From: a virus
DNA length: 30,036 nt
Strand: one strand, 5' to 3'
Virus record (IMG/VR): IMGVR_UViG_3300027734_000233
Span: 1-30,036 of that record
Made by a program: the position numbers and the translations under genes. Position 1 is the stretch's first letter; every line of letters starts with the position of its first letter. Of this stretch, positions 9,606 to 20,207 are shown one piece after another. A model generated the notes under the pieces. That model saw only the letters and a list, made by a program, of their open reading frames with translations. It made no database searches and was not told the origin of the DNA.

Positions 9606-11072
9606 ATGCGCGTACCGGTACAGCGAGACAGCACGGCGACAGGCGTGGTCGGCGCGAAGGTCGCGCTCATCAAGCCAGGTACGAACGTCACGTTCACCGA
9701 AGCCGTCGTCGGCGACAAGCTCGAGGTGACGATCGCGGCCTCGGGTGGAGGTGGCGGCACGCCGGCCTCGTCGGTCGTGTCGGAGACGTCGTTTGGGTTG
9801 TCGCCGATCGTTGGAACCAGCACGAACTACGCACGGCAGGATCACAGCCACGGAAGCCCGACGATCCCACTGGCCTCGTCGGTCGTGTCAGAAACGTCGT
9901 TTGGCCTGTCGTCCGCAGTCGGGACGAGCACGAACGTCGCACGACAGGATCACACCCACGGCACGCCTAGCCTTACGTTCGCGTCGTCTGTGGTCACCGA
10001 GACTGCGTTTGGTCAGTCGAGCGCGGTCGGCACGAGCACGAACGTCGCACGCCAGGATCACACGCACGGCACTCCGACGATCCCGCTCGCGTCTAGCGTT
10101 GTGACAGAGACGTCGTTCGGTCAGAGCAGCGCCGTAGGCACGAGCACGAATGTCGCGCGCGAGGATCACACCCACGGCACGCCGGCCTCGCCGATCTCTG
10201 CGTCGTTCCTCGCCGGCTACTTCGGAGACGGTAGCGACGGCGACGTCACGATCGCGGCAGGCACCACGACGTTGACGCGAGAGACGCACTACAACAACCT
10301 GACGCTTGCGGCGAACGCCATCCTCAAGCCGGCTGGGTTCCGCATCTTCGTCAAGGGTACGCTGACCTTCGGCACGGCCAGCTCGATCAACGACGACGGC
10401 AACAACGGAGCCGCGCAGGTCGGCGGCGCTGGCCTCGCGTCTCGTGGCTACCTGGGCGGTCAAGGCGGCGCGGGCGGCGATGGCTGGCGTGTACTCGGCG
10501 CCAGCGTCGCCAATGGAAACGCAGGCGCGAGCAGTGGCGGTGCATCGTCGCTCAACAACTCCAACCTCGCGCCGATCGGTGGCGCGGGCGGTAACAGCTC
10601 GTCGCGCACTGGCGGCAACGCCGGCACGGCAGGACAGCCATCACCGTCGCAGAAATGGTCTGGCCGTTGGCAGGATGGACGCTACAGCGGTGGCGCCTTC
10701 AGCGGCGGCAGTGGAGGCGGCGGCGGCGCAATCACGGTCACGGCGTTTACGTCTGGCGCGTTCGTCTCTGGAGGCGGCGGCAGTGGAGGTGGCATCGTGT
10801 GGGTCGCGGCCAACAACATCGTCGGTGGCGGGATCGGCTTCTCGGCGAAGGGCGGCAACGGTGCAAGCGCATCGCTCGGCGTCGGGACGGGCAACTGTGC
10901 AGGCGGCGGCGGCGGCGGCGGCGGCTGCGTTGCTGTGATCTGCAAGACATTTACATCCTTCACCGTCTCCGTCGCTGGAGGCACAGGCGGCATCGCCGCA
11001 TCCTCGGGCGGTGTCGCTACGGATGGCTCCGCAGGCCGCGACGGCGGCTACATCATCGTGGTGCTCGGATGA
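9606..11072 (+). CDS. Tail fibre with DHTHG repeats and glycine-rich tip
   Basis: This 488-residue protein has a short N-terminal anchor (about residues 1-53), then four 36-residue repeats (54-197), each ending in a DHSHG or DHTHG motif. A strand-rich segment follows (about 200-275). The last 210 residues are very glycine-rich, with runs of GG and GGGG alternating with short hydrophobic strands and ending DGGYIIVVLG. HTHG repeats occur in many phage fibres, where the His residues can bind metal along a trimeric shaft. The glycine-rich tip recalls adhesins built from polyglycine-II helices, such as T-even Gp38-type tips. Receptor binding is a reasonable inference, but the receptor is unknown. 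Confidence 0.82.
   Translation: MRVPVQRDSTATGVVGAKVALIKPGTNVTFTEAVVGDKLEVTIAASGGGGGTPASSVVSETSFGLSPIVGTSTNYARQDHSHGSPTIPLASSVVSETSFGLSSAVGTSTNVARQDHTHGTPSLTFASSVVTETAFGQSSAVGTSTNVARQDHTHGTPTIPLASSVVTETSFGQSSAVGTSTNVAREDHTHGTPASPISASFLAGYFGDGSDGDVTIAAGTTTLTRETHYNNLTLAANAILKPAGFRIFVKGTLTFGTASSINDDGNNGAAQVGGAGLASRGYLGGQGGAGGDGWRVLGASVANGNAGASSGGASSLNNSNLAPIGGAGGNSSSRTGGNAGTAGQPSPSQKWSGRWQDGRYSGGAFSGGSGGGGGAITVTAFTSGAFVSGGGGSGGGIVWVAANNIVGGGIGFSAKGGNGASASLGVGTGNCAGGGGGGGGCVAVICKTFTSFTVSVAGGTGGIAASSGGVATDGSAGRDGGYIIVVLG
9765..10196 (+). repeat. Four in-frame tandem repeats of 108 bp in the fibre gene
   Basis: Units begin at 9765, 9873, 9981 and 10089, exactly 108 bp apart (36 codons). Each encodes ASSVV-E-FG--S-VGTSTN-AR-DHTHG-P with a few changes. 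Unit 1 is the most diverged (DHSHG, NYARQ). No unit is broken, so copy number can change without a frameshift. Confidence 0.95.
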
Positions 11073-18130: not shown

Positions 18131-18292
18131 ATGGAAGGAATCAAGTGCTCCTGCGGGAGCGAAGAAGTCGTGCGTCTTTACGGAGAGGTCGCGCGTCTGA
18201 AGGCGAACCTCGACCGCGCGCTGCGTGAGGTGCGCGACCAGGAGCGCGAGAACGCGGCGCTGCGTCGTCGGCTGAAGGAAGGCGGGCGGTGA
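18131..18292 (+). CDS. 53-residue coiled-coil protein with CxC motif
   Basis: The ATG at 18131 gives a short protein that starts MEGIKCSCGSEEVVRL. A charged heptad-like helix follows (VARLKANLDRALREVRDQER) and the chain ends RRRLKEGGR. The stop overlaps the methyltransferase GTG by four bases, which supports real translation. The CxC at the N-terminus could bind metal or form part of a dimer. There is no known family. Confidence 0.6.
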   Translation: MEGIKCSCGSEEVVRLYGEVARLKANLDRALREVRDQERENAALRRRLKEGGR

Positions 18293-19320
18293 GGTATCTC
18301 TCCGTCTGCTCGGGCATCGAGGCCGCGTCTGTCGCATGGCATCCGCTCGGATGGGAGCCTGCGGCGTTCTGCGAGATCGAAGCCTTCCCGTCTGCGGTGC
18401 TCGCGCACCGATACCCCAACGTGCCCAACTATGGCGACTTTACGAGGCTCACCGATGCAGCTCACCCTATTCACGACGCCGGCATCGACCTCCTCGTCGG
18501 AGGCACGCCATGCCAAGCATTCTCCGTCGCAGGACTGCGGCAGGGATTGGCCGACGCTCGCGGTGGCCTCGCGTTGGAGTACGTCCGCTTGGCTCGCGCA
18601 CTTAGCCCGCGATGGCTCCTCTGGGAAAACGTCCCTGGCGTCCTGTCATCAGGACAGGGACGGGACTTTGGTGCCTTCGTCGGGGCGCTGGTTGAGAGCG
18701 GGTATGGCGTCGCTTGGCGGGTGCTGGACGCTCAACTTGTGCGAGTGGACGGATACGCTGGTGCCGTCCCACAGCGACGGAAGCGTGTGTTCGTTGTCGG
18801 ATGTGCTGGAGGAGACGCAGCTCGTGCCGCAGCGGTTCTTTTTGAGCCCGAGGGCGTGCGCCGGGATTCTGCGCCGCGCCGAGAGACGAGGAAAGGAGCT
18901 GCCTCCGATGCTGCTGGAGGCTTTGAGGTCTGTGGCACACTCTCCGACGGAGCGCACCACGGAGGAGGACTGAACGGTCAAGACGCCTACACGGGGCGTG
19001 TGCTTCCGGTCGCCTTCGACACGTACAACCACGCCGTGTCGCATGTCTGCCAGACCATCAAGTCGCCTAGCGGTGGCGCGAACGAGAGTGTCGGTACAGT
19101 GCTCACATCAATGGCCGTCCGTCGCCTCACGCCGACCGAGTGCGAGCGGCTGCAAGGCTTCCCTGACGGATGGACGGCCATACCGTGGAAGAGCAAGCCG
19201 GCCAGCGAGTGTCCCTATGGGCCGCGGTACAAAGCTCTGGGCAACTCGATGGCCTGCAACGTGATGCGCTGGATCGGCACGCGGATCGCGATGGTGGATG
19301 CTGCTGTAGGTGGAGCATGA
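18289..19320 (+). CDS. dcm: DNA cytosine-5 methyltransferase (orphan, Dcm-like)
   Basis: The GTG start overlaps the previous stop by four bases, giving 343 residues. C5-methyltransferase motifs are in order: I LSVCSGIEAASVAW (SAM binding), IV GGTPCQAFSVAG (catalytic C75), VI WENVPGV, VIII QRRKRVFVVG, IX RRLTPTECERLQGFPDGW and X YKALGNSM. The target-recognition region (about 185-280) is short and low-complexity. It would methylate phage DNA, most likely against host restriction; no cognate nuclease is present. Its central part is also read in a second frame by another gene. Confidence 0.95.
   Translation: MRYLSVCSGIEAASVAWHPLGWEPAAFCEIEAFPSAVLAHRYPNVPNYGDFTRLTDAAHPIHDAGIDLLVGGTPCQAFSVAGLRQGLADARGGLALEYVRLARALSPRWLLWENVPGVLSSGQGRDFGAFVGALVESGYGVAWRVLDAQLVRVDGYAGAVPQRRKRVFVVGCAGGDAARAAAVLFEPEGVRRDSAPRRETRKGAASDAAGGFEVCGTLSDGAHHGGGLNGQDAYTGRVLPVAFDTYNHAVSHVCQTIKSPSGGANESVGTVLTSMAVRRLTPTECERLQGFPDGWTAIPWKSKPASECPYGPRYKALGNSMACNVMRWIGTRIAMVDAAVGGA
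18455..18973 (+). CDS. Overprinted gene inside the methyltransferase (RFFLSPRACAGILRRA family)
   Basis: In the +1 frame relative to dcm, the ATG at 18455 (GAGG upstream; an earlier ATG is at 18431) gives 172 residues. The product begins MQLTLFTTPA, contains DGTLVPSSGRW and CWTLNLCEW, and ends with VCSLSDVLE and QRFFLSPRACAGILRRAERR followed by GKELP. From memory, this C-terminal signature recurs in phage and prophage proteins annotated as hypothetical, often beside cytosine methyltransferases, so this frame looks truly coding. It spans methyltransferase residues 56-228, including motifs IV to VIII. Function is unknown. Confidence 0.68.
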   Translation: MQLTLFTTPASTSSSEARHAKHSPSQDCGRDWPTLAVASRWSTSAWLAHLARDGSSGKTSLASCHQDRDGTLVPSSGRWLRAGMASLGGCWTLNLCEWTDTLVPSHSDGSVCSLSDVLEETQLVPQRFFLSPRACAGILRRAERRGKELPPMLLEALRSVAHSPTERTTEED

Positions 19321-20207
19321 GGCCGTCGATCTCCACGCTGACCGGAGCCTTCGGCGTCGTGCCTGTTGCGCTGGCGACCTGCGACGAGGTGCAGGAGCTG
19401 CCTCTTCGTGCACTGCGCGTCTACCTCGTCCTGCTCTCGCGGTTCAATGCCAAGCGCGACGGATGGTCGTGGAGCAAGGCCGCGTTCGCGCGCGACACGG
19501 GCGTGCATCGCGACCACATCGGCGAGGTCATCAAGCGCCTCGAGGCTTCTGGCCTGCTCGCCGTCGAGCGTGGTCACGGACTCGTCTCGAGTCATTACCG
19601 GCTCACGGTGCCGCCCAGCCTGACGGTAGGGGAGGGGGCCAGTTTGGCCCCCACGGTGGGGGCTGGTTTAGCCCCCTCCCCCCTGCACGCTACCTCTGAA
19701 CTGGCCCCCAGGGTGGGGGCTGATTTGGCCCCCAGGGTGGGGGCTAGTTTGGCCCCCACATTACACAGAGATCACACAGAGGTCACAACAGAACCCCCTT
19801 ACCCCCACAGCGAGCCGGATCCGGTCAACCCCCCTAGCCCCCCTGCAAGCAGGGGGGGACAGAATGAGCCTTCGTTCAGTGAGGGGAGCAAGTTCCCGCT
19901 GCCGGAACGGTACAACAAGGTGAAGCGACCGCCTGGCCCATGGCAGAACCGGCAGGCTCCTGCGCCTGCGCCAGAGGTGCCCGTTGCTCGCACGGAAACG
20001 GCCTCTCCTGCCGACCTGATCCGTCAGGTGGCTCGCGACCTAGGCGTGCGTCCACGCGAGGCCAAGAAGCATCTGGCGAGGCAGGAGGCGGGTGCGGTCG
20101 AACGCGAGCGAACCGAGCGCCACGGGGCACCGAGCGCGCTGACGGTCGATGACGAGATCCTCCGCGAGATGCGCGAGCTTTACGGCTGGCCGCGCGGTGA
20201 TGCTTGA
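19317..20207 (+). CDS. Winged-helix replication initiator (lambda O-like organisation)
   Basis: This 296-residue protein has an ATG overlapping the dcm stop by four bases. Residues 15-100 form a winged HTH: LPLRALRVYLVLLSRFN, WSWSKAAFARDTGVHRDHIG, EVIKRLEASGLLAVERG. The middle (about 105-150) is an eight-residue peptide repeat (VGAxLAPR) encoded by palindromic DNA repeats. A Pro-rich linker follows, then a charged C-terminal domain (ADLIRQVARDLGVRPREAKK) that may contact a helicase or loader. The arrangement matches lambda O, whose gene contains the origin. No helicase loader is recognised nearby, so host proteins may be recruited directly. Confidence 0.7.
   Translation: MRPSISTLTGAFGVVPVALATCDEVQELPLRALRVYLVLLSRFNAKRDGWSWSKAAFARDTGVHRDHIGEVIKRLEASGLLAVERGHGLVSSHYRLTVPPSLTVGEGASLAPTVGAGLAPSPLHATSELAPRVGADLAPRVGASLAPTLHRDHTEVTTEPPYPHSEPDPVNPPSPPASRGGQNEPSFSEGSKFPLPERYNKVKRPPGPWQNRQAPAPAPEVPVARTETASPADLIRQVARDLGVRPREAKKHLARQEAGAVERERTERHGAPSALTVDDEILREMRELYGWPRGDA
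19634..19757. repeat. Palindromic iterons, probable replication origin
   Basis: Four near-identical 19-bp palindromes of form GGGGGCY-RRTTT-GGCCCCC start at 19634, 19658, 19715 and 19739. A fifth at 19691 keeps only the right arm. Neighbouring units are 24 bp apart (8 codons), except for a 33-bp step from the second to the third. They lie within the winged-helix initiator gene, as lambda iterons lie within O, so the initiator probably binds them. Confidence 0.75.
19763..19857. other. A-rich direct repeats and hairpin beside the iterons
   Basis: Immediately after the iterons two tandem 11-bp repeats (ACACAGAGATC, ACACAGAGGTC; 19763-19784) lie in the least GC-rich part of this gene, a candidate unwinding element. 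A perfect 9-bp hairpin follows at 19838-19857 (CCCCCCTGC-AA-GCAGGGGGG). Confidence 0.5.

Follow-up and report, generated by a model that had tools for sequence, protein, structure and literature searches.

The C5 cytosine methyltransferase gene described here encloses a second gene, termed ORF2, which lies in the +1 frame across the catalytic core of the enzyme. That ORF2 is a genuine conserved overlapping gene is nearly certain from the sequence evidence, with its translation being inferred in the absence of expression data. Judging from its homologues, it is shared by a single large clade of C5 cytosine methyltransferases from phages and seems to have been kept there for a very long time. 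Its product probably, if by no means surely, acts in trans as the second subunit of the methyltransferase, an inference that lacks data on expression, binding or activity. Long overlapping genes are rare in the DNA of cells and phages, and most of them are young or restricted to one lineage. In contrast, ORF2 appears to have arisen once and not to have been lost in the sampled clade, is found in phages and prophages of many bacterial phyla, and overlies the catalytic core of an enzyme family that has been studied in depth. Database records either annotate the methyltransferase alone or mislabel the second frame.

The window, by which we mean the entire 30,036-base virus record that was analyzed, encodes the methyltransferase at 18289-19320, on the + strand like all other features of this locus. 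The enzyme has a GTG start, comprises 343 aa, and carries motifs I-X. Its membership in PF00145 is supported by a significant profile match (E=6.5e-44) as well as motifs I, IV, VI, VIII, IX, and X in the translation, and it also matches PHROG 116 (E=7.7e-85). ORF2 extends from the ATG at 18455 to a stop codon ending at 18973 (172 aa) and was assigned on the basis of stop depletion bounded at its start region, synonymous constraint, and HMM scores beyond those of a methyltransferase shadow. The preliminary description of this DNA had placed a 172-residue +1 reading frame over motifs IV-VIII, and both this frame and the C-terminal strings quoted for it are indeed present. ORF2 thereby covers motif IV (GGTPCQAFS, 18499-18525) and ends just past motif VIII (QRRKRVFVVG, 18772-18801). 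A Shine-Dalgarno-like GAGG (18444-18447) is located 7 nt ahead of ATG 18455, and ACGAGGCTCACCG-ATG recurs in the same or near-identical form in loci L001-L006. An upstream ATG at 18431 is an alternative start from which the frame is likewise open (180 aa), and no GAGG-like sequence was found before it. A Shine-Dalgarno test revealed only a moderate shift and is of minor support.

Taken alone, the open frame of the window is unremarkable. The sequence is GC-rich and its +1 frame was open in 44% of synonymous shuffles (p=0.44); therefore, openness alone does not speak for a gene here and was rejected as evidence. We similarly rejected tblastn or HMM E-values alone as proof of ORF2, since shuffled shadows of the methyltransferase reach 91 bits. 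Both observations are what one would expect if ORF2 were a mere shadow of methyltransferase conservation in GC-rich DNA, as shuffled shadows do score significantly (null median 39 bits). However, that explanation is regarded as already refuted by the score, low-GC, stop-boundary, and openness tests, and we leave it next to no probability. Real genes, which were picked by methyltransferase similarity, have a median ORF2 profile HMM score of 182 bits, and each scores above the shuffles of its own locus, which confirms the earlier expectation of homologues beyond methyltransferase shadows. Along 202 distinct methyltransferases, observed +1 stops equal the expected number upstream of ORF2 and then collapse, with 4 observed vs 26 expected, 1 vs 39, 0 vs 19, 2 vs 35, 2 vs 48, and 3 vs 79 per seven-codon bin. 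Thus, relatives carry nearly no +1 stops from the ORF2 start on, a check on which the initial claim was to stand or fall. The boundary of the collapse is located about 11 codons before motif IV, which is the site of the ORF2 ATG. For a P1/gammaproteobacterial class of 16 genes, the collapse occurs only past codon +30, at that class's own ATG.

The same result can be observed from sets that were not chosen by ORF2, in which the frame is open through motifs IV-VIII in 43/45 genes (8.3 expected) and in 27/28 (0.17 expected). The latter set consists of viral relatives that were retrieved by querying with an ordinary methyltransferase and then scored as ORF2-bearing; the ORF2 labels in this test were assigned by scoring the ORF2 profile with stops masked, so there was no direct selection for openness. 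Among low-GC members, the frames of the Streptococcus and Solobacterium phages (~40% GC) are open for 189 and 218 codons, as compared to 0/5000 shuffles, which places chance openness at odds below 1 in 5000. Conversely, 60 ORF2-lacking methyltransferases (39 viral and 21 bacterial) have +1 stops at the expected rate and none is open. Ordinary methyltransferases exhibit none of the stop, codon, or wobble signals of ORF2. A second frame open beyond the expectation from the first frame is one criterion for an overlapping gene, and it is met.

A further criterion, excess synonymous constraint in the first frame combined with a codon-position pattern of the second, is met as well. At unchanged methyltransferase residues, codon agreement among sequences of 45-65% identity is 0.54-0.56 inside the overlap vs 0.39-0.41 outside. 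The strongest constraint is located at 18649-18912, where observed minus expected codon identity is mostly 0.13-0.51, as opposed to about 0.01-0.11 outside the overlap. Synonymous variation is therefore strongly reduced, as had been predicted from the window, but the reduction is concentrated in ORF2 residues about 66-153 rather than spread over the whole reading frame. Within the ORF2 core, the most variable position is methyltransferase position 1, which is the ORF2 wobble position, and not position 3; variability at positions 1/2/3 is 0.383/0.228/0.285 in the core vs 0.246-0.281/0.207-0.252/0.568-0.584 outside. Core identity is also higher in the +1 frame (0.63) than in the methyltransferase frame (0.53), and among ten P1-like copies the third-position excess is 2.5-fold outside the overlap and 0.87 inside. 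These codon patterns demonstrate protein-level selection upon the C-terminal core in the +1 frame, to the extent that selection can be read from aligned genes. ORF2 residues 1-65 are under almost no amino acid constraint, yet they are kept stop-free, and therefore probably constitute a translated, flexible leader. One might instead suppose that the +1 frame is read only via ribosomal frameshifting from the methyltransferase, or that it is a DNA or RNA element rather than a protein which is conserved. The start of the strongest constraint well inside ORF2 (18649) is compatible with this, as are three loci in which the ORF2 frame runs on into motifs IX-X. Nevertheless, we consider it very improbable, given that 1) stops are absent from the start region on, including the poorly conserved N-terminal part, 2) the stop boundaries differ between the two classes and each coincides with an ATG, and 3) variation in the core tracks ORF2 codon positions. 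All told, the earlier proposal that the methyltransferase is overprinted with another conserved gene is supported by homologue scores, stop absence, and synonymous constraint.

When examining the distribution of ORF2, tblastn detected the +1 product in 150 phage records and in 529 plasmids, mostly from Escherichia, and those plasmids that were read are P1-type phage-plasmids. The clade ranges over phages and prophages of Proteobacteria, Actinobacteria, Firmicutes, Acidobacteria, Planctomycetes, and others; the P1-type dam gene also belongs to it. In 488 complete E. coli genomes the larger part of the P7 dam version is present, and among the records listed for it the methyltransferase alone is annotated. 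The dmt genes of P1 were scored as non-essential by CRISPRi (PMC10695390). For a closer comparison, 175 loci were assembled from viral contigs and bacterial genomes fetched by ORF2 similarity, with phage records added, and in all 175 a methyltransferase frame overlaps ORF2 at the identical +1 offset. No free-standing ORF2 was found in these loci or in the genome samples searched. The preliminary description had pointed to separate phage and prophage proteins of this kind, which is not borne out; such proteins are probably annotations of the ORF2 frame itself, as with gp104 of mycobacteriophage Thibault. When 143 methyltransferases were placed in a quick tree based on motifs I-VIII, the presence or absence of ORF2 required 2 changes vs 46 with shuffled labels. 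L294 accounts for one of these changes; it was labelled ORF2-bearing with a score of 25 bits, but has stops in the frame and was treated as a probable false positive. The simplest reading of this tree would be one origin of ORF2 and no loss in the sampled clade.

It is the core of ORF2 (SLSDVLEETQLVPQRFFLSPRACAGILRRAERRGKELPPMLLEALRSVA, 18791-18937) that offers a clue to its function. The pattern LSDVLE..VPQRFFLS matches an in-frame segment of ordinary C5-methyltransferases (L.DILE..V.eKYyLS.K) found between motif VIII and the target-recognition region. The +1 cores of low-GC members (LSDILEEQVDQKYFLSE) exhibit the pattern carried in frame by ordinary enzymes, an example being RLRDILEDEVDERYYLSED from L344. 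In a profile comparison with ordinary methyltransferases, the core aligned to this post-motif VIII segment with E=3e-4 and a probability of 40%. A profile built only from +1 cores found the in-frame segment in 27/60 ORF2-lacking methyltransferases, 29-59 residues past motif VIII, vs 0/231 ORF2-bearing ones, and column-shuffled and reversed versions of the +1-core profile yielded no matches. Conversely, a profile constructed from in-frame segments alone matched the +1 frame in 186/251 ORF2-bearing genes (29/29 in the low-GC set) and the methyltransferase frame in 0/251. For ORF2-lacking genes the distribution is reversed, with 57/83 matched in the methyltransferase frame and 0/83 in the +1 frame; 27 of these 57 are the sequences that built the profile. 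Shuffles gave 23/3765 matches, all of which came from the low-GC set. The +1 frame of the window scored 17 bits and its shuffles were negative, while the segment sits in a constant register, 7-8 codons past the motif VIII glutamine, in 163 genes. The segment is thus found in the +1 frame and never in the enzyme's own frame when ORF2 is present, and the reverse when it is absent. These matches demonstrate, within the reach of profile detection, that the methyltransferase frame of ORF2-bearing genes lacks the segment, which is instead carried by the nested gene. In some members the match is weak (5.4 bits in P7 and 3.4 bits in Phoebus). The LSDILE portion lies partly over the tail of motif VIII, so convergence is not excluded. 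Whether the core is a displaced segment by descent or a convergent resemblance is not fully separable from present comparisons; either way, it resembles an enzyme segment.

AlphaFold2 predicts a confident helical C-terminal domain for ORF2 (helices 114-120, 132-145, and 151-161; block pLDDT 79-96 over residues 121-160) and a low-confidence N-terminal part. The predicted fold has no clear match in the PDB (Foldseek best E 1.7; VIA-align Z 4.9), although this should not be taken as a sign of a new fold, and when the ORF2 profile and its core were searched against PDB sequences, only chance matches came back. In the window methyltransferase modeled alone, the catalytic domain and motifs IX-X are confident, and residues 196-270 (18874-19098), the expected site of the small domain/TRD, are disordered (pLDDT under 50). 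Such predicted disorder, located where the small domain should be, is consistent with a missing segment. It remains weak support, because the TRDs of ordinary enzymes often model poorly too.

Based upon these features, we favor a split enzyme in which ORF2 supplies the second subunit. On a single mRNA, translation would initiate at the methyltransferase start and again at the internal ATG 18455 behind GAGG. The ORF2 protein would then bind the methyltransferase (alpha) chain and provide the missing small-domain element in trans, such that an active, or correctly targeted, methyltransferase would need both proteins, and their overlap in the DNA would link the subunits in both dosage and inheritance. 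Both two-polypeptide C5-methyltransferases and reassembly after a cut between motif VIII and the TRD provide precedents (PMC3404938). Counted in favor of a subunit are the complementary distribution of the segment, the absence of free-standing ORF2 from the 175 loci, and the lack of an ordered small domain in the alpha chain alone. Counted against it are the detection of the segment in only 57/83 ORF2-lacking enzymes, the little amino acid constraint in the N-terminal part of ORF2, the weak matches of some members, and the poor modeling common for TRDs. The broader historical claim, namely that a conserved part of the enzyme's fold was moved out into an overlapping gene, and that the enzyme has been a nested two-protein one ever since in phages of many bacterial phyla, we hold to be evenly poised between true and false.

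An inhibitory or regulatory role is the main rival to a subunit. The translated ORF2 product might bind its own or a competing methyltransferase and tune or block its activity, for example by delaying methylation. The fact that ORF2 is never found apart from a methyltransferase would suit such a protein equally, and its enzyme-like segment could compete for a binding site. However, a pure inhibitor would not require that the segment be absent from the methyltransferase frame of every ORF2-bearing gene (0/251), and no loss of ORF2 is apparent in the sampled clade. We consequently view regulation as unlikely, without dismissing it. It is also conceivable that ORF2 is translated and has a function unrelated to methylation, such as counter-defence or DNA binding, having merely arisen inside a methyltransferase gene. 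Its function is unknown and a compact helical domain is predicted, both of which leave room for this possibility, but standalone or relocated copies are absent from the 175 loci and the genome samples, and the core matches a methyltransferase segment, making it decidedly unlikely. The preliminary description had suggested an embedded partner that might modulate methylation or restriction. The nested gene is almost certainly real; with respect to the partner's nature, the profile matches are better explained by a displaced piece of the enzyme than by an unrelated modulator.

In M.EcoHK31I (YGGCCR), an overlapping alternate frame encodes the small subunit, which at 176 aa is close to ORF2 in size. 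Like the arrangement proposed for ORF2, M.EcoHK31I is a C5-methyltransferase of two polypeptides, but its small polypeptide carries motif IX (PMC3404938), whereas ORF2 carries the post-motif VIII segment and leaves motifs IX and X to the large chain. In the window, motifs IX (RRLTPTECERLQGFPD) and X (YKALGNSMA) are found in the methyltransferase frame at 19120-19254, as they are in 200/209 relatives; an M.EcoHK31I-type division, with motif IX in the small chain and none in the large, is therefore not what is seen. M.AquI (CYCGRG) is likewise a two-polypeptide C5-methyltransferase and is analogous to the proposed split, but is divided differently, as its second chain carries half of the variable region plus motifs IX-X (PMC3404938), which belong to the first chain in those 200/209 relatives. 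The idea that ORF2 carries motifs IX-X, as the second chain of M.AquI does, was also rejected, given that these motifs are contiguous with the ORF2 frame in only 3/209 loci and with the third frame in about as many, so random indels suffice. Another hidden second frame in a phage methylase gene is the out-of-frame HNH endonuclease of the mycobacteriophage ShiLan domain, which differs in being a mobile insertion, in the third frame, without a ribosome-binding site, and of patchy occurrence (PMC11855218). ORF2 is not of this type, as it is in the +1 frame over motifs IV-VIII, has neither an HNH nor any other Pfam match, and is found throughout its clade. PHROG 16143 is a profile of the same +1 frame, matched by P0001 (E=4.8e-7, residues 64-140) and by the ORF2 of L009 (6.7e-10), but it is labelled as the DNA methyltransferase itself, with no indication in the library of an overlapping frame. 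Among open papers, and with REBASE and subscription papers outside our scope, we found nothing on overlapping genes in C5-methyltransferases beyond PMC11855218 and the split enzymes.

Should the split be confirmed, the DNA of a catalytic core would encode both subunits at once. The complementary distribution of one segment over two frames affords an unusual view of how a protein piece can change its reading frame. There is a practical consequence as well. If ORF2 is needed for activity, recoded synthetic methyltransferase genes of this clade would lose their partner unnoticed.

Several variants of the locus were also observed. In L143, L064, and L139, it is the ORF2 frame rather than the methyltransferase frame that runs on into motifs IX-X, which could reflect natural frame-switch variants or sequencing errors. 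In the Omegavirus phages Phoebus and Lucky2013 (L010 3233-3430 and L292 2131-2526), the methyltransferase frame ends before motif IX, and motifs IX-X are encoded by an ORF of their own, which uses the ORF2 frame and varies at the wobble position of that frame, making this a naturally divided enzyme. In the mycobacteriophages Thibault, Schatzie, and Constella (L289, L290, and L291), an HNH endonuclease gene, annotated as located within a possible intron, splits the methyltransferase inside the ORF2 overlap, and past this HNH gene the ORF2 frame of Thibault is annotated as gp104. The P1-like phage-plasmids L279-L287 combine the last ~20 ORF2 residues and the downstream part of the methyltransferase in varying ways, with enzyme lengths of 673-1096 aa, as if modules had been swapped directly past the ORF2 core. 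Elsewhere in the window, a 108-base tandem repeat (9765-10184, 3.9 copies) lies inside an ORF without a PHROG match (9606-11072). The gene following the methyltransferase, which encodes a replication-initiation-like protein (19320-20207), contains a 24-base tandem repeat at 19702-19758 (2.4 copies, 93% match), the GC-rich palindromic units of which encode a repeated LAPxVGA peptide.
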